A stretch of DNA of 64,000 nucleotides, taken from positions 868,001-932,000 of the forward strand of contig NZ_JASTLB010000001.1 of the NCBI RefSeq assembly GCF_030499535.1, read 5' to 3'. A program made the translations under genes and the position numbers. This document shows, piece by piece, positions 1 to 31,861 of the stretch. This DNA comes from Streptomyces sp. TG1A-8. Its GTDB lineage: Bacteria; Actinomycetota; Actinomycetes; Streptomycetales; Streptomycetaceae. The notes beneath the pieces are model-generated. The model had not been told where the DNA came from and did not search any database. It was given only the letters and a program-made list of their open reading frames with translations. How positions within the stretch are numbered: the first letter of the stretch is position 1; every line of letters starts with the position of its first letter.

Positions 1-1759
1 GCCGGTGTCCGGGCACGTCGTCCGGCGGGGCGGCGAGCAGGCCGGCGACCTCCTTGGCGTCCAGGGCGAGGGCGGGGGCCGCGTCGCGCAGCATCAGCGC
101 GATCCGCTCCTCCGGGTAGGCGGGGTCGACGGGCAGGAACGCGGCGCCCGTCTTCGCCACCGCCAGCTGCGCCAGCACCATGTCCGCCGAGCGCGGCAGG
201 AGCAGCGCGACGACGTCGCCGGGGCCCGCGCCCCGGGCGATGAGCCGGTGCGCGAGGCGGTTGGCCCTGGTCTCGGCCTGCGCGTACGTCAGCACCCGGC
301 CGGGCGCGGCGAGCGCGGGCGCGGCCGGCCACCGGTCGACGGCGGACTCGACGAGGGCGGGCAGGGTGGCCGGTGCCACCGGGGGGTGGTCCGGGCGGAC
401 CGGTCCGCGCAGCAGCCGGGCCCGGTCCGCGGGCGGCAGGACGTCGACGTCGTCCAGGCGGGCGGTGCCGTCGGACGCGGCCAGGGCCTGCAGGGTGTGC
501 AGGAGCTGCCCGGCCAGGGAGCGGGCGGTGGCCGCGTCGAAGTGGCGGGGGTCGTAGCCGAGTTCCACCGCGAGCCGGTCGCCGGGCGAGACGACCACGG
601 TGAGGGGGTAGTTGGTGGCCTCCCGGGCGTCCAGTTCCCGCAGGGTGAGGCCGTGCGCACCGGCCGTGGCGTCACCGACCGGGTAGTTCTCGAAGACCAC
701 CAGGGAGTCGAACAGCGGTGTCCCGGCGGGCAGTTCGGTGAGCCCGTGCAGCGCGTTCAGGGGGACGTGGTCGAAGCGGCGGTCCTCGGCCCGTGCGTCC
801 TGCACCGCGCGCAGCCAGGCGGCGCAGCCGGCGCCGCCGTCGACGGGGATCCGGGCGGGCAGGGTGGTGATGAACAGGCCGGTGATGGTGTCGGCGCCGG
901 GCAGGTCGGCGGGCCGCCCGGAGACGGTGGTGCCGAAGCACACCTCCCGCTCCCCGCTCCACCGGGACAGCAGCAGCGCCCAGGCACCCTGCACCAGGGT
1001 GTTGAGGGTGAGGCGGTGCCGGCGGGCGAACTCCCGCAGGCGGTGCGTGCCCTCGGCATCGAGCCGCTGGGAGAGCCAGGTGCCGGAGCGGGCCGTGGCG
1101 TCCGGTCCGGGCCTGCGGTCGTAGGGCAGCGGGGTCGGGGTGGTCAGGTCCGCCAGGACGCCGCGCCAGTACTCCTCGGCCCGGCCGGTGTCGCGGGCGG
1201 CGAGCCAGGCGGCGTAGTCCGCGAACGGCCGGCGTTCGGGCAGCCGCGGCCGCTCGTCCCGGGCGAGCGCGGCGTGGGCGGCCAGCACGTCGGACAGGAC
1301 GTGGAAGACGCTCCACCCGTCCAGCAGGACGTGGTGGAAGGTCCACACCACTCGCACGGCGTGCGGGCCGAGCCGGATCAGGGCCAGGCGCAGCAGCGGC
1401 GCCCGGTCCAGGGCGATGCCGCGGACCCGTTCGGTGGCGAGCAGCCGTTCCAGTTCCGCCGCGCGCTCCTGCTCCGGCAGGGTGCTCCAGTCGTGTTCGG
1501 TGACCGGCAGGGTGACGTCCCGGTGGACGACCTGGAGCGGCACGGGGACGCCGCGCAGGGCGACGCGGGTGCGCAGGACGGGGGTGCGGTCGACGACGTG
1601 CTGCCAGGCGGCGGCCAGCAGCCGGGGATCGCGGGCGCCGTCCACGACGAAGGTGATCTGCTCGACGTACAGGCCGTTCTCGGCGTCGTCCAGGCCGTGC
1701 ACGACCATGCCGGTCTGGGTGGGCGTGAGCGGGTAGACGTCCACGACGTCCGCGGCCCG
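1..1759 (-). other. NRPS module 5: C-A (cut by window edge)
   Basis: The C domain opens [16 protein letters not shown] and has HHVLLDGWS near 1308-1350. The following A domain starts around base 375 and is cut before its A3 motif, so neither substrate nor the presence of an epimerase can be read. Confidence 0.88.
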
Positions 1760-13700: not shown

Positions 13701-16700
13701 CCGATGCGCTCGGCCGGGTAGGCGGGGTCGACGGGCAGGTAGCCCGCGCCCGACTTCAGCACCGCCCACAGCACGGGCAGCAGGTCGGCGGTGCGCGGCA
13801 GGCACAGCGCGACCAGGGTCTCCGGTCCCGCGCCGCGTGCGACCAACTGCCGGGCCAGGCGGTTGGCGCGCCGGTTGACCTCGGCGTAGTCCAGCCGGTC
13901 GGGGCCGCAGAGGACGGCGGTGCGGTCGGGGGTGCGGGCCGCCTGCGCCTGGAACAGCTCGGGCAGGGTGACGTCCTCGGTGTCCCGGGAGCGGCGCGCG
14001 GGCGGATTCCAGGCGTCCACCAGCGTGCGCTGCTCCTGCGGCGCGAGCATGGGCAGCTCCGCCAGCGTCCGGTTCGGGCCGTCGGCCATGCCCTCCAGCA
14101 GGCGGTGCAGGTGGCGGGAGAGGCGGGCCGCGGTCGGGGCCCCGAACAGGTCGGTGTTGTACTCGACCGTCAGCGCACAGCCGCCCTCCGCGTCGGGGGC
14201 GAACTCCAGCACCAGGTCGAAGCGGGCGGCGGGACGGGGCAGCGGGTGGTCCTCGAAGCGCAGGCCGCCGGCGTGCGGCGGGGCGGTGCCGGCGGTCTGC
14301 TGGACGACGAGCGCCTGCACCAGCGGGGTGCGGCTGGGATCGCGGGGCGGGGCGAGTTCCTCGACCACCCGGTCGAACGGCACCCGGTCGTGGGCGAAGG
14401 CGTCCAGCACCGTCGTGCGCATGCTCTCGACGAAGGCGTCGACGGTCGCCCGCTCGTCCACGTCGCCGCGCAGGACCACGGTGTTGGCGAAGAAACCCGC
14501 CACGTCCTCCAGGTCCCGCCGGCCCCGCCCGTTGGTGACGGTGCCGAAGGCGACGTCCCGCTGTCCGCAGTAGCGGGCGAACAGCAGCGCGGAGGCACCC
14601 GCGAACAGCGTGAAGACCGTCGTGCCGCGCCCCGCCGCCAGGTGCCGCAGCCGGGCGACCAGGTCCGCGGGCAGGTGGTGCCGGTGCGCCGCCCCGGCCG
14701 TGGTGCGGACCGCGGGCCGGGGCCGGTCGGTGGGCAGGTCCAGGTGCTGGATGCCCGACAGGTGCCGTCTCCAGTAGGCGAGGTCCGCGGCGTCCTCGCC
14801 GTCGGTCCGCTGCCGCCGCTCCCACGCGGCGAAGTCCGGGTACTGGACGGCGGGGGCGGGCAGGCCGTCCGGCTCGCCGGTGACCTCCGCGTGGTAGAGG
14901 GCGGCCAGCTCGCGGGTGAGCAGGCCCACCGACCAGCCGTCGGTGACGATGTGGTGCTGGGCCAGGAGCAGCAGGTGCTCGTCGGCGGCGAGGCGGACGA
15001 GCAGCGCCCGGGTCAGCGGGCCCGCCGTCAGGTCGTAGGGGCGGCTCAGTTCTTCGGTGAGCAGCCGCTCGGCGGCCTCGGCGCGGTGCCGCGCGGGGGT
15101 GTCGCCGAGGTCGGCGGTCCGCAGCGGCAGGGACGGCTCCGGGGCGACGCGCTGCGCGCCCTGCCCGTCGGCCGTGGTGAACGTGGTGCGCAGCGCGTCG
15201 TGGCGGGCGGCGAGCCGGTGCAGGGACCGGCGCAGGGCGCCGGGGTCCAGGGGGCCGCGCAGCCGCAGCGACACGCCGGTGTTGTACTCGGTGCCGCCGG
15301 CGGTGAGGTCGTCGAGGAACCACAGCCTGCGCTGGGCGCTGGACAGCGGCACGGTGCCCCCGCGGGGCGCGGGCGGTATCGGTTCCGGCGGGGCGGCGGC
15401 GGACGGCTCGCCGAGCAGGGCGGCCAGGGCGGCGACGGTGCGGGCGGTGAAGACGTCCCGCACCGTCAGCCGGACGCCCAGGTCCTCCCGGATCCGGGCC
15501 AGGGTGCGGGCGGCGAGGATCGAGTCGCCGCCCAGGTCGAAGAAGTCGTCGCCCGCGCCGACCGCGCCGACGCCCAGGACGTCCGCCCAGATCGCCGCCA
15601 GGGACCGCTCCTGCTCGGTGCGCGGGGGCACGTGGCCCGCGGCGGGCACGTGGTCGGGGACGGGCAGGGCGCGCCGGTCGATCTTGTGCTGGGCGGTGAG
15701 CGGCATCCGGTCCAGGACGACGACGGCGGAGGGCACCATGTGGGCCGGCAGGACGGCGGCCACGGCCGTGCGCAGGGCCGCCGGGTCGGGGGCGCGCGCG
15801 GGCTCGACGGGCGTGACGTAGCCGACGAGGCGCTGTCTGCCCGGCTCGTCCTCGCGGACCACGACCACGGCCTCGGCGACGCCGGGGTTCCGGCGCAGCG
15901 CCGCCTCGATCTCGCCCGGTTCGATCCGGAAGCCGCGGACCTTGACCTGCCGGTCGAGCCGGCCGAGGAACTCCACGTCCCCGTCGGCCGTCCAGCGCGC
16001 CCGGTCGCCGGTGCGGTACAGCCGGGCACCGGGCGGTCCGAAGGGGTCGGCGACGAAGCGGGCGGCGGTCAGACCGGGGCGGCCCAGGTAGCCCCGGGCC
16101 AGCGCGTCGCCGCCGATGAACAGCTCGCCGTCGGTGCCGGGCGGTACGGGCCGCATCGCGGCGTCGAGCACGTGCACCCGGGTGTGCGGCAGGGCACTGC
16201 CGATGGTGGGCGCGCCGCGGCCGGCGGTGAGCGGCCCGGTCCAGGTCGCGACGATGGTGGCTTCGGTCGGGCCGTAGGAGTTGATCATGCGGCGGCCGGG
16301 TGCCCAGCGGTCGACGAGCGCGGCCGGGCAGGCCTCGGCGCCCACGACCAGCGTGCGCAGGTGGCGTGCCGTGCCCCCGGCCGGGTCGGGGAGGGTGGCC
16401 AGGGCGGCCGGCGGGATCAGGGCGTGGGTGATCCGGTGGCCGTCCAGGACGGCGGCGAGTTCGTCGCCCAGCCAGGGGCCGTCCGGCGGTACGACGAGGG
16501 TGGCGCCCGACAGGACGGAGATGAACAGCTCCAGCACGGAGGCGTCGAAGCTGGGCGAGGAGAACTGCAGCACGCGGTCGCCCGGGCCGACGGCGTACTG
16601 GGCGGCGGCGGCCGTGGTGAAGCCCACGATGCCGCGGTGGGTGACCGTCACGCCCTTGGGGGTGCCGGTGGAGCCGGACGTGTAGATCACGTAAGCCGCG

Positions 16701-17323
16701 TGGTCGGCACCGGTCTCGGCTCCGGCCGGGTACGCGGGTGTGGGTGTGGGTGTGGGTGTGGGTGCCACGCTGCCCGCGGTATCAATGTGCCCGGCATCCA
16801 TGGGTTTCGCACCCATGTGCCTGGTGCCCGTGTGCCGGGGATCCACGTGCGTGCCACCCATGTGCGCCGCGTCCACATACGCGCCGTCCATGAGGTCACG
16901 GACCTGCCGCGGGTCGTCGAGGATCACGGCGGGCGCGGCGTCGGCGAGCATCAGTGCCCGCCGCTCGGCGGGGTAGGCGGGGTCCACCGGCAGGAAGGCG
17001 GCGCCCGCCCGGGCCACGGCCAGCTCGGCCGCGATCAGTTCCATGGAGCGCGGCAGCACCAGCGCGACCACCCGGTCCGGTCCGGCGCCCCGTGCCGAGA
17101 GGTGGCCGCCCAGCCGGTCGGCGCGGGCCGCCAGTTCCCGGTAGCTCCACGTCCGCCGGCCGTCGGTGAGCGCCGGTGCGTCCGGGGTGCGGGCCACCCA
17201 GGCGGTGAACAGCTCGCCGAGCGTCGGGGGAGCCTGCGCCGCGGCGCTCCCGGCGGGCCCGGCGGCCTGGTCGGCCTGGGGCAGGGGGGACGCCGGTGCG
17301 GGCTTGTCGTGCAGGTCCGTCAT
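1..17323 (-). CDS. Multimodular non-ribosomal peptide synthetase, 3' part outside the window
   Basis: The frame stays open from ATG 17323 to the left edge, giving at least 5774 residues. Domains seen in order: A-T, C-A-T-E, C-A-T-E, C-A-T-E, C-A(partial). Each T domain carries GGDS, with the pantetheine serines at residues 601, 1655, 3163 and 4682. C domains keep HHxxxDGWS and E domains keep HHLVxDxVSW. The first module has no C domain, so it is an initiation module and this protein probably starts the peptide. Three E domains in a row predict D residues at positions 2, 3 and 4. No MbtH-like gene and no thioesterase is visible. The P450 and the free serine hydrolase upstream lie on the same strand, with 250 bp before this start, so all three may belong to one transcription unit. 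The family and layout are read directly; the product is unknown. Confidence 0.97.
1760..6279 (-). other. NRPS module 4: C-A-T-E
   Basis: The C domain opens [14 protein letters not shown] and has HHVLLDGWS near 5840-5875. The A domain has [11 protein letters not shown] (about 4420-4445) and [11 protein letters not shown]. The code by eye is DVFSVAIVYK, one residue different from module 2, so modules 2 and 4 probably load the same amino acid. The carrier serine is residue 4682 (3278-3280). The E domain carries [10 protein letters not shown] near 2730-2752, so the residue should be D. Confidence 0.88.
6280..10839 (-). other. NRPS module 3: C-A-T-E, Val-like
   Basis: The C domain opens [13 protein letters not shown] and carries HHLVLDGWS (about 10396-10425); its position after an E domain makes it DCL-type. 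The A domain has [11 protein letters not shown] (about 8970-9005) and [10 protein letters not shown]. The code by eye is DAYWWGGTFK; the GGTFK ending is well known for Val and close branched-chain activators. The carrier serine is residue 3163. The E domain carries [10 protein letters not shown] near 7255-7286. The predicted third residue is D-Val or a close relative. Confidence 0.88.
6293..6349. repeat. 57-bp exact direct repeat, copy 1 (E-C linker)
   Basis: Identical base for base to 10853-10909. It encodes the linker between the E domain of module 3 and the C domain of module 4. The copies are 4560 bp apart, exactly one module and a multiple of three. Confidence 0.95.
10840..15359 (-). other. 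NRPS module 2: C-A-T-E
   Basis: The C domain starts at [11 protein letters not shown] and has HHIVTDGWS near 14930-14955, as expected for an LCL-type domain accepting an L donor. The A domain has [11 protein letters not shown] near 13490-13520 and [10 protein letters not shown]; the specificity code by eye is DVFSVAVVYK, substrate not recognised. The carrier serine is residue 1655. The E domain begins [10 protein letters not shown] and has [10 protein letters not shown] near 11821-11835, so the second residue should be D. It ends in the linker [18 protein letters not shown]. Confidence 0.9.
10853..10909. repeat. 57-bp exact direct repeat, copy 2 (E-C linker)
   Basis: Second copy, in the linker between the E domain of module 2 and the C domain of module 3. 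A third, diverged version of the linker lies near 1785-1840. Confidence 0.95.
15360..17323 (-). other. NRPS module 1: A-T (initiation)
   Basis: Adenylation core motif [11 protein letters not shown] lies near 16660-16690, INSYGPTE marks A5, and the terminal Lys sits in [10 protein letters not shown]. Aligned by eye to GrsA, the ten specificity residues read DALLVGSIVK. I cannot assign a substrate from this; a hydrophobic or aromatic residue is only a guess. The carrier serine is residue 601 (15521-15523). No epimerase follows, so the first residue should be L. A low-complexity insert lies between core motifs A2 and A3. Confidence 0.9.
16736..16897. repeat. Tandem repeats inside the first A domain: hexamer plus degenerate 15-mer
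   Basis: Bases 16736-16764 hold nearly five copies of GGGTGT on the plus strand, read on the minus strand as a run of Thr-Pro. Next to it, about 16777-16897 encodes roughly eight five-residue units such as [20 protein letters not shown] and GHIDT, i.e. degenerate 15-bp repeats. Both keep frame and fall between core motifs A2 and A3, where A domains normally have only a short loop. Confidence 0.85.
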
Positions 17324-20238: not shown

Positions 20239-21435
20239 TTCTCCTCGGTACGGCGCGCGGGAAACGCAGGGATCGTGCGGGCGTGGGTGCCGCGGGGCGA
20301 CTGCGGGCGGGGCAGGCCGCACAGGGCGTGGGTCACGGGCACGCCTGCGGCACCGTCGACGGAACGTCGGGGAGCGCGGAACGTGTGACCCGCGTGGCTT
20401 CGTCGTGCGCGGCGCTGCGGCCGGATGCCGTCAGCCTGCCGCCGGAGCGGTCCGGAGCGTCTCGACACGCCCGGGGAGGGGCGTGCCGGCGCCACGGCCG
20501 TCACTGCCCCGTGCCACTGGGCTCTGCGGCCCGTCGGACCAACTCATCGCGCATCCCCCTTGATGTCGCCTTCCCGCGCGACGACCGCGCGGGACCCTCC
20601 CGGCTCCTGAGCGACGGCGGGCCACCGACCCGACCGTGTGAAACGAGGCGAGAGAATACTCAGTACCGACCGGTACTGCCTCACGATTGGCACGATACGC
20701 ACCCAGAATCGCCTTCGTTTCCATGGAACTCGGCCACAGTCTTCACGGCCTGTCACCCGAAGGCAACCCCATGAAATCGAACGGAGCGTGATTTGGCGGT
20801 GCTTTTGCGTCACCGCTTCGCCACTTCGACACGGGCGGTGCACCCACGTCGCCCGGGTCGGATCCCGCCTCGGCGCCCGCTCCGGCGATTCGCCGGCAAA
20901 CCCGTGATTCTCGAAAAAGACGCCTGTCGCCCCCCCTCCGCCACACCGACCGGCCGGCCCGCCCCACCGCCCCGGAGTCCGCCGCGACGGCCGGCACCAC
21001 CCCTGATCTGGAGGAATGTTTCGGCCAACGACAAGCGAGGACACATGGACACAACCGGAACACAACGTACCGGTCAGCGGGCCGATCGCCGACCGACGGG
21101 AACCGGCCGGCACGCGGTCCGTGCGGCCGACACGTCGTCTGGTCGGCGCCGGGCACCGGGATCGTTCCCCCTCGTCCGCCACCCCCGGCCGCCGGGCGTC
21201 GCAAATCAGCCATCCTGGCGCGTAGGAGCACATGAACCATGTCGGCTCGCGCCCCGATCACGCGGGCTTGAAGGAAGCGGATCCGGGTATGCGGGTGGGT
21301 TGGCTCGTCCCGGTCCGGGCGCGGCACGGGCGGGCCGCACGACGCGCGGGCGGGTGGTTCGCCGTGCGCGGGGCGCGTCCGCGAGGGAGCCTTGACCCGG
21401 GATGCGACGCGCGGCCGTACGAGGAGGTGGTCGGC
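20239..21435. other. 1.2-kb divergent non-coding region at the cluster edge
   Basis: No reading frame here has convincing codon bias or a recognisable product. The stretch 20630-20800 is clearly less GC-rich than its surroundings and should hold the promoter(s) of the leftward P450-hydrolase-NRPS set. It separates the peptide cluster from the SpoIIE gene. Confidence 0.6.
20662..20677. promoter_or_regulatory. Near-perfect palindrome, candidate operator
   Basis: AGTACCGACCGGTACT: seven-base arms AGTACCG/CGGTACT around two unmatched bases, in the AT-richer part of the divergent region about 430 bp before the P450. The size suits a dimeric repressor; no regulator gene lies next to it. Confidence 0.4.
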
Positions 21436-23592
21436 GTGCCCGACGGGCCAGGACCCGGGCAGGCGCCGGGTGCCGCCGACACGGCGGACGGCCGGCCGCT
21501 GCTGTCGCTCGCGCTGACCGCGATGATGGAGCAGGTGCACGCCCACACGGGCGCGGTGTACCTGCTCCGGCCCGACGAGCCGGTGCTGGAGATGGTGGTG
21601 ATGGCGGGCATGCCCCGGGCGTTCGCGGCGCCCTGGGAGCGGGTCGGGCTGAGCGCGCCGATCCCGGTCGCGGACGCGGTCCGCGAACGGCGCCTGGTCT
21701 GGGTGGGCGGCGAGGAGGAGATGGCGCGCCGCTACCCGCGCGTCTCCGTGGTGCTGCCCTACCCGTTCGCACTGGCCGCGGTACCGGTGGCGACGGGACG
21801 GGCCGTGTACGGCGCCGTCTTCGTCACCTGGCCCGGCGGGCACCCGCCGGAGCTGTCCGACGGGGAGCGCGAACGTCTGACGGCGGCCTGCGGCCGGCTG
21901 GCGCAGCGCCTGGAGCTGGTGGCCAGGGAGAACCGGCGGCTCGGTCCGGAGACCGATCTGGTCGCGACGCCCTGGGCCGGGGTGTCGGGGACGCTGGAGT
22001 CGCTCGAGGCGGCCCGGATGGTGGCCCGGCTGCCGTACGGGCTGGTGTCGCTCGACCTGCTCGGGCGGGTCTCCTTCGTCAGCCCGGCCGCCGCCGACCT
22101 GCTCGGCCGGCCCGCCCGGGAGCTGCTCGGCACCCTGCCGTGGGTGTCGGTGCCGTGGCTGCGCGACCCGGTGTACGAGGACCGCTACCGGGCCGCCCTG
22201 CTGAGCCAGCAGGCCACGTCGTTCGTGGCGCTGCGTCGGCCGGGCGACCCGCTGTCCTTCCGGCTGTATCCGAGCACGACCGGGCTGAGCATCCGCGTCA
22301 GCCGGGCCCCGGCGGTGGCGGACACGGCGGTGGCGGACACGGCGCGCGCGGCACCGCGGGCGGGCCCGGGGCCGTCGCGGCTGGTCACCATCTCCCAGGT
22401 GCTGAGCCTGGCCGGGGCGCTGACCGAGGCCGTGGGGGTGCAGGACGTCGTCCAGCTGGTCGCCGACGAGGTCGCCCCGGCGGTCGGCAGCCGGGCACTG
22501 GTGATCCTCGGCACCCGGGGCGGGCGGCTGCACGTCCTGGGACACCGCGGGTATCGGGACCCGCGCGTGGTGGAGCGGCTGGACGGCCTGCCGCTGGGCG
22601 AGCGCACCCCGGGCACCCAGGTCCTGACCACCGGAGTACCGGCGTTCCTCGACTCGCGCGAGCAACTGGAACGGCTGTATCCGGGCCGGCCCGCGGCCCC
22701 GGACGGATTCGCCGCCTGGGCCTACCTGCCACTGATCTCCTCCGGGCGGCCGGTCGGCACGTGTGTGCTGGCGTACGCCGCCCCCCGCGTCTTCCCCGCC
22801 GACGAGCGGGTGGTCCTGACCAGTCTCGGCGGGCTGATCGCGCAGGCGCTGGAGCGGGCCCAGCTGTACGACGCCAAGCACCGGCTCGCGCACGGACTGC
22901 AGGAGGCGCTGCTGCCGCACTCGCTGGCGCCGCTGCCCGGCGTCGAGGCGGCCGCCCGCTATCTGCCGGCCACCCACGGCATGGAGATCGGCGGCGACTT
23001 CTACGACCTGGTGCCGGCCCGGCCGCTGCCGGCGGCGGTGATCGGGGACGTGCAGGGGCACAACGTGACGGCGGCGGCCCTGATGGGGCAGATCCGCACC
23101 GGGGTCCGGGCCTACACCACGGTGGGGCAGGCGCCCCACGAGGTGATGAGCAGCGCCAACCGGCTGCTGATCGACCTCGGCAGCGAGCTGTTCGCCAGCT
23201 GTCTGTACCTGCGGCTGGACGCGGCGCGGGGGCGGGCCGTGATGGCGCGCGCGGGGCACCCGCCGCCGCTGCTGCGCCACCCGGACGGACGGGTGCGGGT
23301 GCTCGACCTGGCCGGGGGGCCGCTGCTGGGCATCGACGCGGCGGCCTCGTACCCGACGACCGAGGTGGCACTGGCCCCCGGTTCCGTGCTCGCCCTCTAC
23401 ACGGACGGCCTGGTCGAGTCGCCGGGCGTCGACATCGAGGACGCCCTGGTCGGGGTGGGTGGGCTCCTCTCCGAAGCGGGCGAGGAGCCGCTGGAGAACC
23501 TGGCCGACGCGCTCGTCCGCCACGGCGCGGCGGGTGGGGAGCGGATCGACGACGTGGCGGTCCTGCTGCTGAGGGTCCGGAACCCCGCCTGA
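21436..23592 (+). CDS. GAF-PAS-GAF-SpoIIE family PP2C serine/threonine phosphatase
   Basis: From GTG 21436 the protein has 718 residues. An N-terminal GAF-like sensor (about 20-165), a PAS-like domain (about 190-300, LPYGLVSLDLLGRVSFVSPA), a second GAF domain (about 320-465) and a C-terminal SpoIIE/PP2C domain (about 490-715) with metal-binding GGDFYD and GDVQGHN are visible. Such proteins dephosphorylate STAS anti-anti-sigma factors in partner-switching pathways; the ligand is unknown. The frame extends upstream to ATG 21232, but that stretch has poor codon bias, while GAGGAGG lies 8 nt before GTG 21436, so I prefer the later start. A converging protease gene follows after a hairpin terminator. 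Confidence 0.92.
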   Translation: MPDGPGPGQAPGAADTADGRPLLSLALTAMMEQVHAHTGAVYLLRPDEPVLEMVVMAGMPRAFAAPWERVGLSAPIPVADAVRERRLVWVGGEEEMARRYPRVSVVLPYPFALAAVPVATGRAVYGAVFVTWPGGHPPELSDGERERLTAACGRLAQRLELVARENRRLGPETDLVATPWAGVSGTLESLEAARMVARLPYGLVSLDLLGRVSFVSPAAADLLGRPARELLGTLPWVSVPWLRDPVYEDRYRAALLSQQATSFVALRRPGDPLSFRLYPSTTGLSIRVSRAPAVADTAVADTARAAPRAGPGPSRLVTISQVLSLAGALTEAVGVQDVVQLVADEVAPAVGSRALVILGTRGGRLHVLGHRGYRDPRVVERLDGLPLGERTPGTQVLTTGVPAFLDSREQLERLYPGRPAAPDGFAAWAYLPLISSGRPVGTCVLAYAAPRVFPADERVVLTSLGGLIAQALERAQLYDAKHRLAHGLQEALLPHSLAPLPGVEAAARYLPATHGMEIGGDFYDLVPARPLPAAVIGDVQGHNVTAAALMGQIRTGVRAYTTVGQAPHEVMSSANRLLIDLGSELFASCLYLRLDAARGRAVMARAGHPPPLLRHPDGRVRVLDLAGGPLLGIDAAASYPTTEVALAPGSVLALYTDGLVESPGVDIEDALVGVGGLLSEAGEEPLENLADALVRHGAAGGERIDDVAVLLLRVRNPA

Positions 23593-23699: not shown

Positions 23700-24983
23700 T
23701 CAGCGGGTCCCGGTGAGGGACGACCCGCCGACGGCCCCCGTGCCGTAGGGGTCACCGCCCGCCCGGTCGTCCCCGGCACCCGCCCGGTCGTCCCTGGCGC
23801 CGGTGGGGTCGTCCGCTCCGGCCGTGTCGCCCGCGCCGGCGCCGAGGGTGGCGCCGGTGGCCCGGAGGGCGGTGGTGACCGGCTGGAAGAAGGTCTCGCC
23901 GCCGCTGGTGCAGTCACCGCTGCCGCCCGAGGTCAGGCCGACCGCGCCGCCGTCCGCGGTGAACAGGGGGCCGCCGCTGTCGCCCGGCTCGGCGCAGACG
24001 TCGGTCCGGATCAGACCGGTGACGGTGTCGACGCCACCGGGGTCGGTCTCGCTCTGGAAGTTGACGGTGGCGTCGAGGCCGGTCACCTGCCCGTCGTGCA
24101 GGCCGGTGGTGGAGCCCATCCGGAACACGCTCCCACCGACGGTGGCGTCCTCGGCCCGGGTGATGGGCACGGTCCGGCCGTCGCCGGTGTCGACCTCGCC
24201 GGGCGCCCGGGTGGCGGGGTCGTCGTACTTGACGAGCGAGAAGTCGCCCCCGCCGGGGAAGGTGGCCCGGTCGACCGTGGCGACGGGCTGCCCGGCCTGG
24301 GAGTCGGACCACTCCTTGGCGGCGACTCCGCAGTGACCGGCCGTCAGGAAGGCGGGACCGCCGTCGGCGGCGGTGACGTTGAAACCGAGGGAGCAGCGGA
24401 CGGTGCCGCCCTGCACCCGGGAGAAGACGGCGTCGCCGCCGGAGGCGAGGGTCTTGAAGGTGCCCGCGGACTTCTTGAGGGTCGCCGTGCCGGGCCCGAG
24501 GCCGCGCACGGTCGACCGCAGCCGGTCCCAGCGGGCGCCGGTGACGGTGGAGTCGGCGGTGACCACGAGCCGGTCGGTGCGCGGGTCGACGGCCCAGGCC
24601 GTGCCCGCCATGGTCGCCCGGGTCCGCAGGGTGCGGGCGGCGGACCGGAGTTCGGCGGCGCTGTTGTCGACCCGGCGGACGACCGCGCCGGTCCTCCTCA
24701 CCCGCGCGACGGTGTCCTCGTCCGCGCCGGCCACGTTGACGACCAACCGCCGTCCGCCACCGTCGTAGTAGGAGCCGGCGAGGGTGTCGCCGAGCGTTCG
24801 CCGCAGTCGTGCGGCGAGGTCCGAGGCGTCCGCGGCCCGCAGCGTCCTCGCGGTGACGGTGGCGCCCGCGACCCCGTCCTGCGAGGCGTTGGCGTGGGGC
24901 AGCAGCAGGGCGGCGGCTCCGAGCGCCGCGACACCGCCGGCCGCCAGCGCGGCCTTCCGCCTGGGCATTCGCTTGTGACTCAA
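23700..24983 (-). CDS. Secreted S1 family serine protease (streptogrisin-like) with propeptide and acidic tail
   Basis: 427 residues. A signal peptide (KRMPRRKAALAAGG... to about residue 34) is followed by an alpha-lytic-type propeptide (about 35-170) and a chymotrypsin-fold domain with His217 (TAGHC), Asp247 (DFSLV) and Ser336 (GDSGGP). The last 45 or so residues are a Gly/Asp-rich tail (GAGDDRAGGDPYG) absent from short streptogrisins such as SGPA/B; it may be a spacer or be trimmed. The start is TTG 24983, with AGGAGG 9 nt upstream; the in-frame ATG 24968 is too far from that site. The gene stands alone. A possible natural partner is the SSI inhibitor at 36.1-36.5 kb. Confidence 0.93.
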   Translation of the reverse strand: MSHKRMPRRKAALAAGGVAALGAAALLLPHANASQDGVAGATVTARTLRAADASDLAARLRRTLGDTLAGSYYDGGGRRLVVNVAGADEDTVARVRRTGAVVRRVDNSAAELRSAARTLRTRATMAGTAWAVDPRTDRLVVTADSTVTGARWDRLRSTVRGLGPGTATLKKSAGTFKTLASGGDAVFSRVQGGTVRCSLGFNVTAADGGPAFLTAGHCGVAAKEWSDSQAGQPVATVDRATFPGGGDFSLVKYDDPATRAPGEVDTGDGRTVPITRAEDATVGGSVFRMGSTTGLHDGQVTGLDATVNFQSETDPGGVDTVTGLIRTDVCAEPGDSGGPLFTADGGAVGLTSGGSGDCTSGGETFFQPVTTALRATGATLGAGAGDTAGADDPTGARDDRAGAGDDRAGGDPYGTGAVGGSSLTGTR

Positions 24984-25590
24984 CCTTCTCGACCTCCTGG
25001 GGGACGGGGACCTGCCGCTGTCGGGCGGTCGACCGGGGCGCCTGGACGGCTGTGGGTACGGCGGGCCGGGCCGGTGCGTTCAATTCCGCTTCCCGGCCCC
25101 CCGCCGGCGGAGGGCCGGGCCGGCCCCTGTTCCGGATGCACCGGGTGAGCGGGCGGTGACCTTCCGTTCCGAACACGTACCGGAATCCCCGCTTCAGGAA
25201 ATCTGCACAGCGCGCACCCAAGCGGGTCACCGCCGTCAGCGGTCCTGCACATCCGTGCGCCCCCCGGCACACCTTTGGCGTGGAGTGCCGGATTCACCTC
25301 CCGGGGGGCAAGGACACGGGGCCGCCGATGCCGCGCGGCGTGTGAAGGAGTGGCCGACATGTCGTGCGGACGCCTGCACGGAAGGACCCCCACGAAGGAG
25401 AAGTGCCCTGGTGAGAGGCCTGGTTGAGTGGAAGCACGGCCCGCGTGCGTGCTTTGATCCATCGCACCGCGGGGGTCCTGCGGGTCTCCGTCCCACGGAT
25501 GCCCGGCGCCCGCGGCCGCGGCCGTCCGTCTGTACCCCAGAGGGGGCCGCTCCCCCCATGTGAACCATCCGTACGAAGGGAAGTCCCCCC
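24984..25590. other. 607-bp divergent non-coding region
   Basis: It lies between the protease start and the double-glycine peptide start. No frame looks coding. It must contain both promoters; I see no clear operator. Confidence 0.6.
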
Positions 25591-25806
25591 ATGAACTCCA
25601 CCTCCCGGGTCGAGACCGCCGAGATCTCGGACGCCGAGCTGGACAACGTCTCCGGCGGTCTGTCCGTGAACGCCCTGGCCACCGTCACCGGCGCCGTGAA
25701 CGGTGTCGTCCCGGTCGCCGGTCTGGTGGACACGGCCGTCGGCACCGTCGAGGGTGCCACCGGCCTGAGCGTCCAGCCGGTCACCAACCTGGTCGCCGGT
25801 CTCTGA
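25591..25806 (+). CDS. Double-glycine leader peptide, bacteriocin-like precursor without cysteine
   Basis: 71 residues. The leader MNSTSRVETAEISDAELDNV-SGG has the acidic, ELDNVSGG ending cut by C39 peptidases. The predicted 48-residue core has no Cys, Lys, Arg, His or aromatic residue; it is rich in Val, Gly, Ala and Thr, carries one Asp and one Glu, and has two GxxxG motifs (GAVNG at core 11-15, GTVEG at 28-32). Without Cys it cannot form lanthionine rings, so a lanthipeptide label would be wrong. GAAGGGAAG precedes the ATG. The exporter genes follow directly. It may be an unmodified membrane-active peptide, a signal or a surface peptide; function is unknown. Confidence 0.85.
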   Translation: MNSTSRVETAEISDAELDNVSGGLSVNALATVTGAVNGVVPVAGLVDTAVGTVEGATGLSVQPVTNLVAGL

Positions 25807-25825
25807 CCGCACCTCGGTGTCCCCC

Positions 25826-25856
25826 GTGTCCCGGAGCCGCCCCGGCTCCGGGACAC
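25826..25856 (+). terminator. Intercistronic hairpin after the precursor gene
   Basis: GTGTCCCGGAGCC and GGCTCCGGGACAC form a perfect 13-bp stem with a 5-nt loop, 20 nt after the peptide stop. No U-run follows. A partial terminator or 3'-end stabiliser would let the peptide be made in excess of its exporter. Confidence 0.6.
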
Positions 25857-25909
25857 CCGGGTGCCCGGGCACGTCGTGACGTCGTCTCTCCTCGGGTGAG
25901 GGAAGTTCC

Positions 25910-26716
25910 GTGCAGTTCCGCCAACAGGCCCTCGCCAAGCTGCAGTCACCGGAGGAACTGGACCTCCCGGTGCGGCTGGCGCGCCCGCAGGGCCGGCTCG
26001 CGCTGGGCGTCACCGTCGTCGTCATGGCGGCGGCCTCCGTGTGGGCGGTGACCGGTTCGGTCGCCTCCACCGTCGGCGCGCAGGCCGTCCTCACCCACGC
26101 ACAGGGCAGTTACCCGCTGCAGAGCCCGGTGACCGGCCAGGTGACCGCCGTCCTCGCCCGGCAGGGCGAGCGCCTGCCCGCGAACGCCCCCGTCCTCAGG
26201 GTCCGTACGGACCGGGGCGACGCGGTGGTCCGGACGGTCGCCGCGGGACGGGTCACCGCGCTCGCCGCCGCCCTCGGGCAGATCGTGCGCACCGGCACCA
26301 CCGTGGCCTCCGTCGAGAAGGTCGCCCACGCCTCGGACCCGCTGTACGCGACGGTCTACGTCCCCGCCGAGAACGCCGCCGCCATCCCCGCGCACGCCCC
26401 CGTCGACCTCACCGTGGCGTCGGTGCCGGCACAGCGGTACGGCGTGCTGCGCGGGCACGTGAAGGCGGTGGACCGCAGCGCGCAGTCCGCCCAGTCGATC
26501 TCCGCGTTCCTCGGTGACGGCCAGCTCGGCGAGCAGTTCACCCGGAACGGGCGCCCGGTGGCCGTCCTGGTGTCGCTGGACAGGTCGGCGTCCACGCGCA
26601 GCGGTTACCGCTGGTCGTCCGCCGGCGGACCGCCCTACCGGCTCGACTCCATGACCCTGGCCGAGGCCTCGATCCGGCTGGCCGACCAGCGTCCCGTCGA
26701 CTGGCTGCTCCCGTGA
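25910..26716 (+). CDS. HlyD-like membrane fusion / adaptor protein of an NHLM-type exporter
   Basis: 268 residues from GTG 25910, preceded by GAGGGAAG. One N-terminal membrane span (about 30-48) is followed by lipoyl/barrel-sandwich-like segments (VTGQVTAVLARQGERLPANAPVL, given here only in part) typical of HlyD/NHLM secretion proteins. It would couple the two ABC proteins to substrate release outside the membrane. The stop overlaps the GTG of the next gene by 4 nt, so the genes are translationally coupled. Short for an HlyD protein, as is usual in Gram-positive systems. Confidence 0.82.
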   Translation: MQFRQQALAKLQSPEELDLPVRLARPQGRLALGVTVVVMAAASVWAVTGSVASTVGAQAVLTHAQGSYPLQSPVTGQVTAVLARQGERLPANAPVLRVRTDRGDAVVRTVAAGRVTALAAALGQIVRTGTTVASVEKVAHASDPLYATVYVPAENAAAIPAHAPVDLTVASVPAQRYGVLRGHVKAVDRSAQSAQSISAFLGDGQLGEQFTRNGRPVAVLVSLDRSASTRSGYRWSSAGGPPYRLDSMTLAEASIRLADQRPVDWLLP

Positions 26717-28935
26717 GCGCCGTCCGGCAGGGCCGCGGCCGCAGGCGGGCCGCCCCGTCCCGGCGTCCGGTCCCCCGTCCCCGCACCGGCACCGTCCGCA
26801 CCCCGACCGTGCTCCAGATGGAGGCCGTCGAGTGCGGCGCCGCCGCCCTCGCCATGGTCCTCGGCCACTACGGCCGGCACGTCCCACTGGAGGAACTGCG
26901 CATCGCCTGCGGGGTGTCCCGGGACGGCTCGCGGGCCGGCAACCTGCTGAAGGCGGCCCGCGGTTACGGGCTGACCGCCAAGGGCATGCAGATGGACCTG
27001 GCCGCGCTCGCCGGGGTGCGGGCACCGGCCATCCTGTTCTGGGAGTTCAACCACTACGTCGTCTTCGACGGCATGGGCCGCCGCTTCGGCCGCCGCGGGG
27101 TGTACGTCAACGACCCCGCCAAGGGCCGCCGGTTCGTCCCCATGGAGGAGTTCGACGGCAGCTTCACCGGGGTCGTCCTGGTGCTGGAGCCCGGCGAGGA
27201 CTTCACCCGGGGGGGCCGCAGGCCGGGCGTGCTCGACGCGGTGCCGGCCCGGCTGCGCGGCACCGCGGGCACCCTGCCGGCGGCGGTGCTGGCCAGCCTG
27301 CTGCTGGTGGCGGTCGGTGCGGCCGTGCCCGCGCTCAGCCGCACCTACATCGACATGTTCCTCATCGGCGGGCAGACCTCCCTGCTGGGCGTGCTGTTCA
27401 CCTCGATGGCCGCCTGCGTGCTGCTCACGCTGGTGCTGACCTGGCTCCAGCAGGCCAACCTGCTGCACGGCCGGATCGTCTCCTCCACGCTGTCCAGCGC
27501 CCGTTTCCTGCGCCACCTGCTGCGGCTGCCGGTGACGTTCTTCGCCCAGCGCTCCCCGGCCGACCTGGTGCAGCGCCTGCAGTCCAACGACCAGGTCGCC
27601 GAGACGCTGGCCCGCGACCTCGCGTCGGCGGGCGTGGACGCCGTCGTGGTCGTGCTGTACGCGGTGCTGCTGTACACCTACGACCCGCAGCTGACGTTCG
27701 TCGGCATCGGCGTGGCCCTGCTGAACGTGGTGGCGATGCGGCTGGTCGTACGGCTGCGGGCGGCCCGGACGGCGAAACTGCGCGCGGACACCGCGCGGCT
27801 CACCAACACCGCGTACACCGGCCTGCAGCTGATCGAGACGCTGAAGGCGACCGGCGGCGAGGACGGCTACTTCCGCAAGTGGGCCGGGCAGCACGCCACC
27901 ACGCTGGAGGAACAGCAGCGGCTCGGCGTGCCGAGCGCGTGGCTCGGCGTGGTCGCCCCGACACTCGCCACCTTCAACAGCGCGCTGATCCTGTGGATCG
28001 GCGGTCTGCGGGCGGTCGAGGGGCACCTCTCGGTCGGTCTGCTGGTCGCGTTCCAGGCGCTGGTCACGCGCTTCACCGCGCCGCTGACCCGGCTGAACGG
28101 CGTGGCGGGCCGCATCCAGGACTTCGCGGCCGACGTGGCCCGGCTGAAGGACGTGGAGGACTTCCGGGCCGATCCGCTGCACGCCCGCCCCGGTGCCGGT
28201 GACTCCACGCGCCGGCTGCACGGGCACGTCGAGCTGGAGAACGTCAGCTTCGGGTACAGCCCGCTGGACCGTCCGCTGCTGACCGGCTTCGACCTGAGCG
28301 TCGGCCCGGGACGGCAGGTGGCGCTGGTCGGCGGCTCGGGCAGCGGCAAGTCGACGGTGTCCCGGCTGATCTCGGGCCTGTACGCGCCGTGGGACGGGGT
28401 GATCCGCATCGACGGCCGCCGGCTGGAGGACATCCCGCGCGGCGCGCTCGCGGCCTCCGTCTCCTTCGTGGACCAGGACGTGTTCCTCTTCGAGGGCTCG
28501 GTCCGCGACAACGTGGCCCTGTGGGACCCCTCGGTCCCGGACGAGGCCGTGGTGGAGGCGCTGCGGGACGCGGCCCTGTACGACGTGGTGATGCGCAGGC
28601 CCGGCGGCATCCACAGCAGGGTTGAGCAGGACGGCCGCAACTTCTCCGGCGGGCAGCGCCAGCGCCTGGAGATCGCGCGGGCGCTGGTGCGCGGGCCCAG
28701 CGTCCTGGTGCTGGACGAGGTGACCAGCGCGCTGGACGCGGAGACCGAGCTGGTCGTGATGGACAACCTGCGCCGGCGCGGCTGCGCCTGCGTGGTGATC
28801 GCGCACCGGCTGAGCACGGTCCGCGACAGCGACGAGATCGTCGTGCTCCAGCAGGGCACGGTCGTCGAGCGCGGGCGGCACGAGGAACTGGTGGCGCGCG
28901 GCGGCGCGTACGCCGCGCTGGTCAGGGAGCGCTGA
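26713..28935 (+). CDS. NHLM-type peptidase/ABC exporter (C39 peptidase, permease, ATPase)
   Basis: 740 residues. An N-terminal C39 protease with Cys41 (EAVECGAAALAM), His114 (NHYVVFDG) and Asp134 (YVNDPA), all present, should cut the leader after Gly-Gly. A six-helix permease (about 170-440) follows, then a nucleotide-binding domain with Walker A GGSGSGKST near residue 540, signature SGGQRQR near 646, Walker B VLVLDEVTSALD and the H-loop IAHRLST. The next gene starts one base after the stop. With the preceding peptide it forms a self-contained processing and export unit. Confidence 0.95.
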   Translation: MSAVRQGRGRRRAAPSRRPVPRPRTGTVRTPTVLQMEAVECGAAALAMVLGHYGRHVPLEELRIACGVSRDGSRAGNLLKAARGYGLTAKGMQMDLAALAGVRAPAILFWEFNHYVVFDGMGRRFGRRGVYVNDPAKGRRFVPMEEFDGSFTGVVLVLEPGEDFTRGGRRPGVLDAVPARLRGTAGTLPAAVLASLLLVAVGAAVPALSRTYIDMFLIGGQTSLLGVLFTSMAACVLLTLVLTWLQQANLLHGRIVSSTLSSARFLRHLLRLPVTFFAQRSPADLVQRLQSNDQVAETLARDLASAGVDAVVVVLYAVLLYTYDPQLTFVGIGVALLNVVAMRLVVRLRAARTAKLRADTARLTNTAYTGLQLIETLKATGGEDGYFRKWAGQHATTLEEQQRLGVPSAWLGVVAPTLATFNSALILWIGGLRAVEGHLSVGLLVAFQALVTRFTAPLTRLNGVAGRIQDFAADVARLKDVEDFRADPLHARPGAGDSTRRLHGHVELENVSFGYSPLDRPLLTGFDLSVGPGRQVALVGGSGSGKSTVSRLISGLYAPWDGVIRIDGRRLEDIPRGALAASVSFVDQDVFLFEGSVRDNVALWDPSVPDEAVVEALRDAALYDVVMRRPGGIHSRVEQDGRNFSGGQRQRLEIARALVRGPSVLVLDEVTSALDAETELVVMDNLRRRGCACVVIAHRLSTVRDSDEIVVLQQGTVVERGRHEELVARGGAYAALVRER

Positions 28936-28936
28936 G

Positions 28937-31753
28937 ATGACGTCCGTGCACGGAGGCGACCCCGTCCTCGACGCCCTCGGCTCGCTGGGCACGCCGATCG
29001 ACTGCGCCGGTCCCGGCCGGCTGGACCTGGCCGGTCCCCAGGTGCTGTGGCTGGTCGCGGCCGGTGCCCTGGACCTGTTCGCGGTGGACGCGGACCAGCA
29101 GGGCCACTGGCACCCCCTGGGCCGGCTGGAGGCGGGCGCGCTGCTGCTCGGCCCGGTCTCGGGCCCCCGGCACACCCTCGTGGCGCGTCCGGTGCGCGAC
29201 TGCGTGGTGCGCCGCGTCGCCCTGCGCGAGCTGTACCGGACGGAGCCCGCCCCGGCGTGGCCGTCCGACGGGTACGGCGGTCCCCGGTGCGTCCCACCGG
29301 CCCCGGACCCGCTCGAACACGCCCTGGCCCTGGGCGTGGGCCGCGGCCTGTCCGTCCTGTTCCAGGCGCCGGCGGCCGAGGAGCGGGCCGCGGCGCCCGC
29401 CGACGACGACGTGTTCTGGATGCAGGTGCCGCCCGGCAGCGTGCGGTACGGCTCCCTGTACGGCGCGGAGGCCGCCGCCGACCTGCTGGTGGACCCCGTG
29501 CTGTGGCAGAGCATGGTCGATCAGCAGTACCGGCTGCTGACCGTGCTGGACCGGTGGATCGAGCAGCTCGAACGCGCCCACGAGATGCGCACGGCGGCCG
29601 GGATCGAGGCCGGTGAGGCGGTGCGCGCCCAGGCCGACCGGACCCTGCTGGCGTCCATCGGCAAGCGCTCGGCGGGCCGTCCGACGGCCGCCGACACCGA
29701 CGCCGGCCACGCCGCCTGCAGGCTGGTGGCCGAGGCGGCCGGGATCACCCTCGCCGAGCCCGTGGGCGCCGGCGCCGGGAGCGAGCGGCTGGACCCGGTC
29801 GAGCGGGTGGCCCTGGCGTCCCGGGTGCGGACCCGGGCCGTGCGCCTGGACGGGCACTGGTGGCGGGAGAACGTGGGCCCGCTGGTCGGTCACCGGGCGC
29901 TGTCGGGGGCACCGGTCGCGCTGCTGTGGCGGCGCGGCGGCTACGTGGCCGTGCACCCGGTGACGGGACGCCAGACCCCGGTCGGGAAGGCGAACGCGAC
30001 GGAGTTCGAGCCGCGCGCGGTGATGTTCTACCGGCCGCTGCCCGAGCGGCGGCCCACACCACTCGGCCTGCTGCGGTTCAGTCTGCGCGGCACGCGCGGC
30101 GACCTGCTGAACCTGCTGCTCGCCGGGCTGGTGACGGTGGCCATCGGCGCGCTGGTGCCCGTCGCCACGGGCAAGGTGCTCGGCGAGTACGTGCCGAGGG
30201 CCCAGGAGGGCCCGATCGCCCGGGTGTGCCTGGCGGTCATGGTCAGCGGGGTCGTCTCGGCCGTGTTCACCCTGCTGGAGAACCTGACCGTCCTGCGCCT
30301 GGAGGGCCGTGTCGAGGCGGCGCTGCAGCCGGCGGTCTGGGACCGGCTGCTCAGGCTGCCGGCCCGGTTCTTCACCGGACGCTCGACCGGTGAACTGGCG
30401 AGTGCCGCCATGGGGATCAGCGCGATCCGGCGGCTGCTGGCGGGCGTCGGCCCGGTGGTCGTGCAGTCGGTGACGGTCGGCACCGTGAACCTCGCCCTGC
30501 TGTTCTGGTACAGCGTGCCGATGGCCGCGGCGGCGCTCGGCATGCTCGTCGTCATCGGTGTCGTCTTCCTCGGGCTCGGACTGTGGCAGGTGCGCTGGCA
30601 GCGCCGCCTGGTGGTGCTCGGCAACAAGCTGAACAACCAGGCCTTCCAGACCCTGCGCGGCCTGCCCAAGCTGCGGGTGGCGGCGGCGGAGAACTACGCC
30701 TACGCGGCCTGGGCGCGGCAGTTCGCGCGCAGCCGGGAGCTGCAGCGCAAGGTGGGCCGCATCAGGAACCTCACCTCGGTGCTGGGCGCGGTCTACCTGC
30801 CCGCCTGCACCCTGCTGATGTTCATGCTGCTGGCCGGTCCGGCGAAGGGCGCGATGCCGGCGGCGGCGTTCCTCACCTTCAGCACGTCGGTGACGATGGT
30901 GCTGACCTCCGTCACCCAGCTCACCGGTGCCTTCGTCTCCGCGGTGGCCGCGCTGCCGCTCTTCGAGGAGATCAGGCCGGTCCTGGACGCCACGCCCGAG
31001 GTGCGCACGGCGAGCACCCGGCCGGGGCCGCTGTCCGGCGCGGTGGAGGCCCGCCGGCTGTCCTTCCGGTACGCCGACGACGGCCCGCTGGTGCTGGACG
31101 ACGTGTCCTTCGCCGTCCGTCCCGGCGAGTTCGTGGCGATCGTCGGCCCCAGCGGCTGCGGCAAGTCCACCCTGCTCAGGCTGCTCATCGGCTTCGACAG
31201 GCCGGTCTCGGGCAGCGTCCTGTACGACGGCCAGGACCTGGCGGCCCTCGACCGGTCGGCGGTGCGCCGCCAGTGCGGTGTCGTCCTCCAGCACGCGCAG
31301 CCGTTCACCGGTTCCGTCCTGGACGTCATCTGCGGCTCGGAGCCGTACACGCCCGAGGAGGCGATGGCCGCCGCCGAACTGGCGGGACTCGCCGAGGACA
31401 TCCGGCGGATGCCGATGGGCCTGCACACGATCGTCGCCGGCAACGGCGCGATCTCCGGCGGGCAGCGGCAGCGCCTGATGATCGCCCAGGCACTGATCCG
31501 GCGCCCGCGCATCCTGTTCCTCGACGAGGCGACCAGCGCCCTGGACAACGAGACCCAGCGCACGGTCATCGAGAGCACCCGCAAGCTCAACGCCACCCGC
31601 GTCGTGATCGCCCACCGCCTGTCGACGGTGCTCGACGCGGACCGGGTCGTCGTCATGGAGGACGGCAGGATCGTCCAGCAGGGCCCGCCCGCCGACCTGC
31701 TCGCCGACACCGGCGGCCGGCTGCACGAGCTGGTGCGCCGGCAGCTCGCGTAG
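28937..31753 (+). CDS. NHLM-type ABC transporter, second permease/ATPase subunit
   Basis: 938 residues. The first 300 or so residues lack a peptidase and instead show a cupin/cyclic-nucleotide-binding-like start (VLWLVAAGALDLFAV) and a long soluble region, as in the second ABC protein of NHLM systems. A permease (about 385-680) and an ATPase follow, with Walker A GPSGCGKST near 737, ISGGQRQRL near 838, LFLDEATSALD and IAHRLST. It probably pairs with the peptidase-ABC protein as a heterodimer. Last gene of the operon; a strong hairpin follows 12 nt later. Confidence 0.93.
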   Translation: MTSVHGGDPVLDALGSLGTPIDCAGPGRLDLAGPQVLWLVAAGALDLFAVDADQQGHWHPLGRLEAGALLLGPVSGPRHTLVARPVRDCVVRRVALRELYRTEPAPAWPSDGYGGPRCVPPAPDPLEHALALGVGRGLSVLFQAPAAEERAAAPADDDVFWMQVPPGSVRYGSLYGAEAAADLLVDPVLWQSMVDQQYRLLTVLDRWIEQLERAHEMRTAAGIEAGEAVRAQADRTLLASIGKRSAGRPTAADTDAGHAACRLVAEAAGITLAEPVGAGAGSERLDPVERVALASRVRTRAVRLDGHWWRENVGPLVGHRALSGAPVALLWRRGGYVAVHPVTGRQTPVGKANATEFEPRAVMFYRPLPERRPTPLGLLRFSLRGTRGDLLNLLLAGLVTVAIGALVPVATGKVLGEYVPRAQEGPIARVCLAVMVSGVVSAVFTLLENLTVLRLEGRVEAALQPAVWDRLLRLPARFFTGRSTGELASAAMGISAIRRLLAGVGPVVVQSVTVGTVNLALLFWYSVPMAAAALGMLVVIGVVFLGLGLWQVRWQRRLVVLGNKLNNQAFQTLRGLPKLRVAAAENYAYAAWARQFARSRELQRKVGRIRNLTSVLGAVYLPACTLLMFMLLAGPAKGAMPAAAFLTFSTSVTMVLTSVTQLTGAFVSAVAALPLFEEIRPVLDATPEVRTASTRPGPLSGAVEARRLSFRYADDGPLVLDDVSFAVRPGEFVAIVGPSGCGKSTLLRLLIGFDRPVSGSVLYDGQDLAALDRSAVRRQCGVVLQHAQPFTGSVLDVICGSEPYTPEEAMAAAELAGLAEDIRRMPMGLHTIVAGNGAISGGQRQRLMIAQALIRRPRILFLDEATSALDNETQRTVIESTRKLNATRVVIAHRLSTVLDADRVVVMEDGRIVQQGPPADLLADTGGRLHELVRRQLA

Positions 31754-31765
31754 GCCCACCCCGCC

Positions 31766-31806
31766 GGTGACCGGCCCCGGCCCCTGGCGGGCCGGGGCCG
31801 GTCACC
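31766..31806 (+). terminator. Strong hairpin terminator of the export operon
   Basis: A perfect 18-bp stem (31766-31783 with 31789-31806) and a 5-nt loop CTGGC begin 12 nt after the stop codon. Confidence 0.9.
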
Positions 31807-31861
31807 GCCGGTGCGTCCACGACCGCCGACTGCGCGCTCCCCCGGGCCGGGCCGCCCCGTG

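Follow-up and report, generated by a model that had tools for sequence, protein, structure and literature searches.

Among the described peptide-export systems, the one closest to the system considered here is the four-gene set SCO0753-0756 of Streptomyces coelicolor. According to the excerpts of the published papers on which all statements about them in this text are based, it consists of a gene for a hydrophobic, cysteine-free peptide located upstream of HlyD, ABC (ATP-binding cassette) and ABC genes, an organisation conserved in many Streptomyces (PMC6629963). Of all genes, SCO0753 was the one most strongly overexpressed in a strain that grows dispersed and carries the activating Sco5282-D125G variant, and it was near-silent in the null mutant; Table 2 of that paper lists log2 changes of 6.3 (SCO0753) and 4.4 (SCO0754). 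The set is described there as being under the two-component system Sco5282/5283, and the authors suggested effects on the hyphal surface. SCO5283 is an OmpR-type regulator (PMC9739842), and the gene set itself is listed elsewhere as a bacteriocin cluster (PMC5733086, PMC6414726). Related, too, is the NHLM/NHLP export system, in which one to 12 NHLP precursors per genome were profiled with a three-gene export cluster (PMC2887384). In this work, we analyzed a 64,000-nt stretch of the Streptomyces sp. TG1A-8 genome (contig NZ_JASTLB010000001.1, positions 868,001 to 932,000; hereafter the window, GC content 75 percent), in which genes for a 71-amino acid (aa) cysteine-free double-glycine precursor, a short HlyD-like adaptor, a C39 peptidase-ABC protein (ABC1) and an NHLM-type ABC protein (ABC2) form one operon. 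We consider it probable that these four genes form the center of a regulon dedicated to peptide secretion, whose single exporter would secrete several unmodified, mostly anionic peptides that probably act at the hyphal surface; they look like a hub because scattered peptide genes share their export tag and promoter.

The locus as such is not new. Its gene order (peptide-HlyD-ABC-ABC) and its hydrophobic cysteine-free peptide match SCO0753-0756 as described in PMC6629963, a match made by order and description and not by sequence (S. coelicolor is outside the 80 of 222 loci retained below), and the S. coelicolor peptide is given there as 77 aa, against 71 aa in the window. The suggestion of a new class, made in an earlier note on this DNA, consequently does not hold at the level of the locus, since both the cysteine-free cluster and the surface-peptide idea were already in print for S. 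coelicolor (PMC6629963). The excerpt of that paper gives an account of SCO0753-0756 without unlinked precursors, a shared promoter element or a LanC test, and what is new here is the co-occurrence of the gene set without a linked conserved modifier, the LanC-free genomes that carry it, the unlinked precursors and the shared promoter element. With the NHLM/NHLP system (PMC2887384) the window operon shares the exporter proteins TIGR03796 and TIGR03797, and its adaptor resembles TIGR03794. Unlike in NHLP systems, however, the window leader is short and has neither TIGR03793 (NHLP) nor TIGR03798 (Nif11-related) among its seven NCBIfam matches up to an E value of 0.1, no maturase is linked, and the adaptor (25910..26716, +; 268 aa) reaches 148.9 bits against TIGR03794, slightly below the cutoff of 156.2, its best stretch being model positions 255-417 of 421, i.e., the C-terminal part. 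SapB (RamS) and the chaplins are likewise secreted hydrophobic peptides of the hyphal surface; SapB is a lanthipeptide with its own synthetase, the chaplins are Sec-exported and have a defined domain, and to our knowledge neither uses a C39 exporter.

The precursor gene (25591-25806, +) encodes a leader of 23 residues (25591..25659, +) that ends in ELDNVSGG and a core of 48 residues (25660..25803, +). The leader end passes the bacteriocin_sig model TIGR01847 (19.6 versus a cutoff of 15.7). The core is devoid of Cys, Lys, Arg, His and aromatic residues, is composed mainly of V12, A7, G7, L6 and T6 with a single D and a single E (both Ser and Thr are present), and has a calculated isoelectric point of 4.05, a grand average of hydropathy of 1.10 and a mass of 4473; the two GxxxG motifs mentioned in the earlier note lie at precursor residues 34 and 51. 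This is not a chance open reading frame (ORF), because 563 of 566 candidate proteins (the window's own counted) match it at E<=1. ABC1 (26713-28935, +; 740 aa) resembles, over residues 33-736, the peptidase-ABC transporter of known structure 4RY2, passes the curated NHLM cutoff of TIGR03796 (1016.5 versus 853.3 bits) and contains a Pfam C39 domain (PF03412, E 1.4e-33). Both ATP-binding and C39 motifs were located in the exporter sequence, including Q35, C41, H114 and D134, which we take to be the C39 catalytic residues. ABC2 (28937-31753, +; 938 aa), a permease-ATPase, passes the TIGR03797 cutoff (867.4 versus 709.4 bits). The HlyD and ABC1 genes overlap by 4 nt and a single base separates ABC1 from ABC2, so that coordinates and TIGR/Pfam matches bear out the operon proposed earlier. 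With a GG leader recognized by TIGR01847 and a PF03412-type C39-ABC protein with its motif residues in place, the precursor is predicted to be a double-glycine, C39-exported peptide.

The four genes were also expected to travel together, and they do. In 80 Streptomyces loci, the best 80 of 222 peptide relatives and found through the peptide alone, all four genes occur in order in 78, and the remaining two loci end at contig ends. A wider set of 60 loci was picked by leader matches; 45 of them hold the operon, defined as the presence of any exporter gene, and 44 of the 45 have the complete exporter set, a proportion that is partly circular, unlike that of the 80 loci, which were not picked by that criterion (the exception, L046, stops at a contig end; species overlap between the two sets was left in and L079 was unused). 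Across 101 genomes of the genus, leader matches were found in 70, HlyD in 71 and both in 69, the discordant ones being G001 with a leader only (79 percent complete) and G028 and G038 with HlyD only (47 and 35 percent identical). Leader genes are also present in sister genera (95 of 200 family genomes, 9 of 17 genera). Across a sample of 296 genomes of the class, 27 have HlyD at E<=1e-15; 24 of these belong to this genus, and the proteins of the other three are only 25-36 percent identical.

A leader-only model (A1) was used to find precursor genes across the 101 Streptomyces genomes and gave 103 leader genes, 69 beside HlyD and 34 elsewhere. These 34 unlinked precursors are spread over 27 genomes, with at most three per genome, and 26 of the 27 have the exporter (Fisher p 1.8e-4, uncorrected for kinship). 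Their leaders closely resemble the linked ones (leader matches below 22 bits were left out of this comparison) and the ribosome-binding context is kept, while the cores differ. At least six core types were distinguished by eye (the family letters are those of this analysis): family A with GPTAVS and GQYxH stretches, Ala/Gly-rich cores with one Cys (B) or without it (B2), Val/Gly/Leu-rich ones (C), and others. A search with one family-A member returned 390 proteins at E<=0.001, which may take in other types. Nei-Gojobori analysis of 81 operon precursors gave an omega of 0.15 for the leader and 0.54 for the core, and values of 0.16 to 1.65 for the parts of unlinked precursors (1.65 for the family-A core, 1.16 for that of family D); as synonymous change is depressed by the codon bias of these genes (GC above 0.9 at third positions), we conclude from this solely that the operon core is more variable than its leader. 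With a crude gene call, seven unlinked loci of family A, one of which lies on a contig of 4 kb, were found to share no neighbor, and no known peptide modifier is present among ten genes that flank six of these loci; unlinked loci from L150 onward were left out of this examination. Among the open-licence papers listed in searches for unlinked precursors, no title or abstract dealt with them.

Several observations on individual loci may be added. One family-A orphan is named 'class IIb bacteriocin' in the database, and this name, like the lantipeptide one discussed below, looks carried over. A SpoIIE-type phosphatase gene (L067:9937-11115, -) adjoins one family-A unlinked precursor, and locus L073 has an ORF that groups with SpoIIE-type genes; genes of this type are common in Streptomyces, and both cases may be due to chance. 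In two other genera (g118 and g120), leader-like peptides with short Cys-rich cores (for example SCSCSPCCTST and CCCCCPCCTCT; L184:6004 and L185:5974) lie beside exporter genes matching HlyD or ABC1 of the window and seem to represent a separate, probably modified peptide system.

The linked and unlinked precursor genes have a common upstream element, in which TGTGAAG is followed after about 105 nt by GTGCTTTGATC. In the window, the whole composite element (25337..25466, +; G000:C1:893337-893466) is matched with 81.8 bits by R1, a sequence-only model of the element built from 48 training stretches, the window's own among them, and this is the only R1 match in its genome at E<=0.01. It comprises box A (TGTGAAGGAGT, 25341..25351, +; consensus TGTGAAG(A/G)AGT), the -35-like box C (TTGAGTGGA, 25424..25432, +; TTGATTGGA in many relatives) and the -10-like box D (GTGCTTTGATCC, 25449..25460, +), where the single exact GTGCTTTGATC of the window genome is located. 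Beside box A there is an imperfect dyad, CGTGC-N8-GCACG (25363..25380, +), recognized by eye within a block conserved in the alignments, which is a possible regulator site. Across linked and unlinked genes, box C reads TTGATTGG or (C/T)TGGC, the TGG being (nearly) invariant in 48 sequences (set A2 comprised 48 of 50 upstream stretches, L064 and L068 having been left out). The distance from the element to the start codon is variable. Box A starts 104-108 nt ahead of box D in 41 of the 53 upstream regions examined for the operon, 35 of which have 106 nt, and the same range holds for 30 of the 48 regions of unlinked genes, with 104 or 105 nt in 28 of them. Since this spacing was kept while the cores diverged, the element presumably has a conserved function; promoter and gene likely share descent by duplication.

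The 11-mer GTGCTTTGATC occurs 110 times in the 101 genomes (six times for the reversed control), and 59 of the sites lie 20-300 nt upstream of a same-strand leader gene. As for R1, all 89 matches of at least 23 bits in this set are placed just upstream of leader genes (63 linked, 26 unlinked), the same is true of 45/45 such matches outside training, and none was found in genomes without HlyD; among the weaker matches (18-23 bits), 2 of 15 are so placed. In the 200 family genomes, out of sample, 92 of 93 matches of at least 23.3 bits and 102 of all 107 matches at E<=0.001 lie upstream of a leader gene, in a test that used 134 leader matches, the nine weakest being left out. The one out-of-sample match above 23.3 bits for which no leader gene was detected (G492:C185:7196-7308, +) may hide a divergent precursor. 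A structured 5' RNA was considered and rejected: RNAalifold predicted no pair in the element, and Rfam gave, in 24900-26000, three weak matches far below gathering scores.

Most of the 120 homologs listed bear the database name 'type A2 lantipeptide', the core contains Ser and Thr, and some unlinked cores contain Cys. In addition, published NHLM export sets accompany precursors of modified peptides (PMC2887384), which would suit a class II lanthipeptide or another ribosomally synthesized and post-translationally modified peptide whose modifier is encoded elsewhere in the genome. We regard this as highly unlikely. Cys, Lys, Arg and aromatic residues are absent from all 81 close operon cores (one has His), whose net charge is -1 to -3, and the 45 wider operon cores, with charges of -1 to -4, have no Cys, Lys or Arg (His in 7, aromatics in 2). 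The earlier note had named cysteine in homologous cores as an observation that would speak against its reading; for the operon cores there is none, although 9 of 48 unlinked cores have it. A LanC-like match (E<=0.001) is present in 88 of the 101 genomes and absent from 13, ten of which carry leader and HlyD (G002, G007, G009, G017, G021, G040, G065, G068, G093, and G098). The window genome has one such match, about 5 Mb from the operon, and among the LanC-like places listed none, judged by eye, is within 40 kb of a leader gene. Because ten system-bearing genomes have no LanC-like match, lanthionine formation by a LanC-type enzyme appears dispensable, and the name 'type A2 lantipeptide' therefore misfits. 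As regards the claim that no modifier is nearby, none of the neighbors scanned in the window is a LanM, LanC or radical SAM (S-adenosylmethionine) enzyme, but a PF14518 haem-oxygenase-like gene (33984), a HemK-like methyltransferase gene (35019) and a P450 gene (19027) are close; they recur in 21, 36 and 3 of the 80 close loci, respectively, within about 10 kb ahead of the operon and 4 kb behind it, the methyltransferase lying near the end of the latter flank. In the flanks (median 3 kb) of the 45 operon loci, ORFs of at least 100 codons are shared by at most 22 loci and, among the 24 divergent ones, by at most 4. Hence no conserved linked modifier was found beside the operon; the genome-wide search was aimed at LanC-like proteins and not at radical SAM, YcaO and ATP-grasp families, so a distant modifier of such a family is conceivable.

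If the peptide is unmodified, it might still be a class II bacteriocin, that is, a membrane-active peptide or multi-peptide set that kills neighbors. A GG leader above the bacteriocin_sig cutoff, the GxxxG motifs, the presence of several peptides in some genomes and a family-A core far more variable than its leader would all agree with such a role. We nevertheless judge it unlikely, as a bacteriocin core is expected to be cationic and, as the earlier note observed for the window, the operon cores are anionic in every case counted (81 and 45); moreover, no conserved ORF of at least 100 codons accompanies the operon (smaller immunity genes being outside that search), and the operon peptide is 76-89 percent identical across the best 80 of 222 relatives, though down to 42 percent in distant ones. 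Two-component control, already in print (PMC6629963), together with a dedicated element and exporter, could also serve secreted signal peptides of the colony. Against this, the neighborhood of the operon contains no conserved gene for a receptor or kinase. Peptide pheromones, in addition, are usually shorter than these 48-residue hydrophobic cores, and we find a signaling role quite unlikely.

The reading of the operon as a secretion hub has to be set against several observations that weigh on the other side. Of the upstream regions, 12 (of 53) for the operon and 18 (of 48) for unlinked genes do not show the box A-box D spacing of 104-108 nt. Among the 110 exact GTGCTTTGATC sites, 51 have no leader gene downstream of them, and 39 of these 51 belong to HlyD-bearing genomes; at 23 bits, the element is not matched for 14 of 103 leader genes. 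Duplication of a gene together with its promoter may account for the common element, which by itself is no proof of present co-regulation. One unlinked precursor is found in a genome without HlyD (79 percent complete), and the window genome has a single leader gene and no unlinked precursor, so trans-export is not universal. Besides the nine with Cys, unlinked cores are more varied in having Lys (13 of 48), His (29 of 48) and aromatic residues (30 of 48), yet 46 of 48 are net negative. An AlphaFold2 model of the precursor (47 sequences) was uninformative (predicted local distance difference test score 60, predicted TM-score 0.22), and the secreted peptide, its mass and the export of unlinked precursors are predictions.

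From the gene set, leader identity, element specificity and co-occurrence, all of them read from the genome sequences, we infer leader cleavage, trans-export, co-regulation and absence of modification, and the secretion hub could operate as follows. The operon and any unlinked precursors would be switched on together by a regulator, the published Sco5282/5283 system being a candidate, via one element that is hardly found elsewhere in the genomes searched. During export, the C39 domain of ABC1 would cleave the precursor behind GG, with HlyD and ABC2 completing the exporter, and the released anionic hydrophobic peptide of about 4.5 kDa would be left enzymatically unmodified. In many species, the same exporter may serve unlinked precursors that combine this leader with different cores. 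Outside the cell, the peptides would act at the hyphal surface as coat, surfactant or matrix and not as bacteriocins; this surface role is the weakest step, a guess drawn from composition and published expression.

Other features of the region concern the layout of the operon and its surroundings. A 14-bp hairpin in the precursor-HlyD interval (25826..25856, +) might act as an attenuator or as a stem for processing; of 126 such regions, 99 percent contain a helix of at least 10 bp, and z is below -2 in 121 of them (40 shuffles each; the window's own z is -1.9). It could keep precursor output above exporter output, which agrees with the published log2 changes of SCO0753 and SCO0754 (PMC6629963). 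The operon had been credited with its own terminator; a perfect 19-bp hairpin is indeed present 3' of it (31765..31807, +), but no T run follows. Upstream of the operon lie genes for a GAF/SpoIIE phosphatase (21232-23592, +) and an alpha-lytic-type serine protease (23700-24983, -), which were considered as parts of the system and rejected: the phosphatase gene is present in 71 of the 80 close loci and the protease gene in 79, but the wider set of 60 has them in 22 and 21 loci, respectively. The first neighbor clustering relied on a crude gene caller, with which HlyD clustered in 24 loci only, and was replaced by the test of ORFs of at least 100 codons. Farther away, an open frame of 5773 codons (2-17323, -) reaches the window start; its codon bias is that of a real gene, and its size that of a megasynthase.

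For Streptomyces and its sister genera, we tentatively propose a broader picture, which seems to us plausible though somewhat short of probable: a dedicated, genome-dispersed secretome of unmodified, mostly anionic peptides, in which one NHLM exporter would serve diversified unlinked substrates, a single-purpose element would be read by one regulator (a Sco5283-type OmpR protein being the candidate), and the products would form a peptide layer or matrix on the hyphae. Such a finding corrects the widespread name 'type A2 lantipeptide', and it would make a locus listed as 'bacteriocin' the center of a regulon. It also predicts many hidden secreted peptides that cluster-based mining would not join to an exporter, and the exact promoter element may give a handle on the regulator and on the role of these peptides in hyphal morphology.

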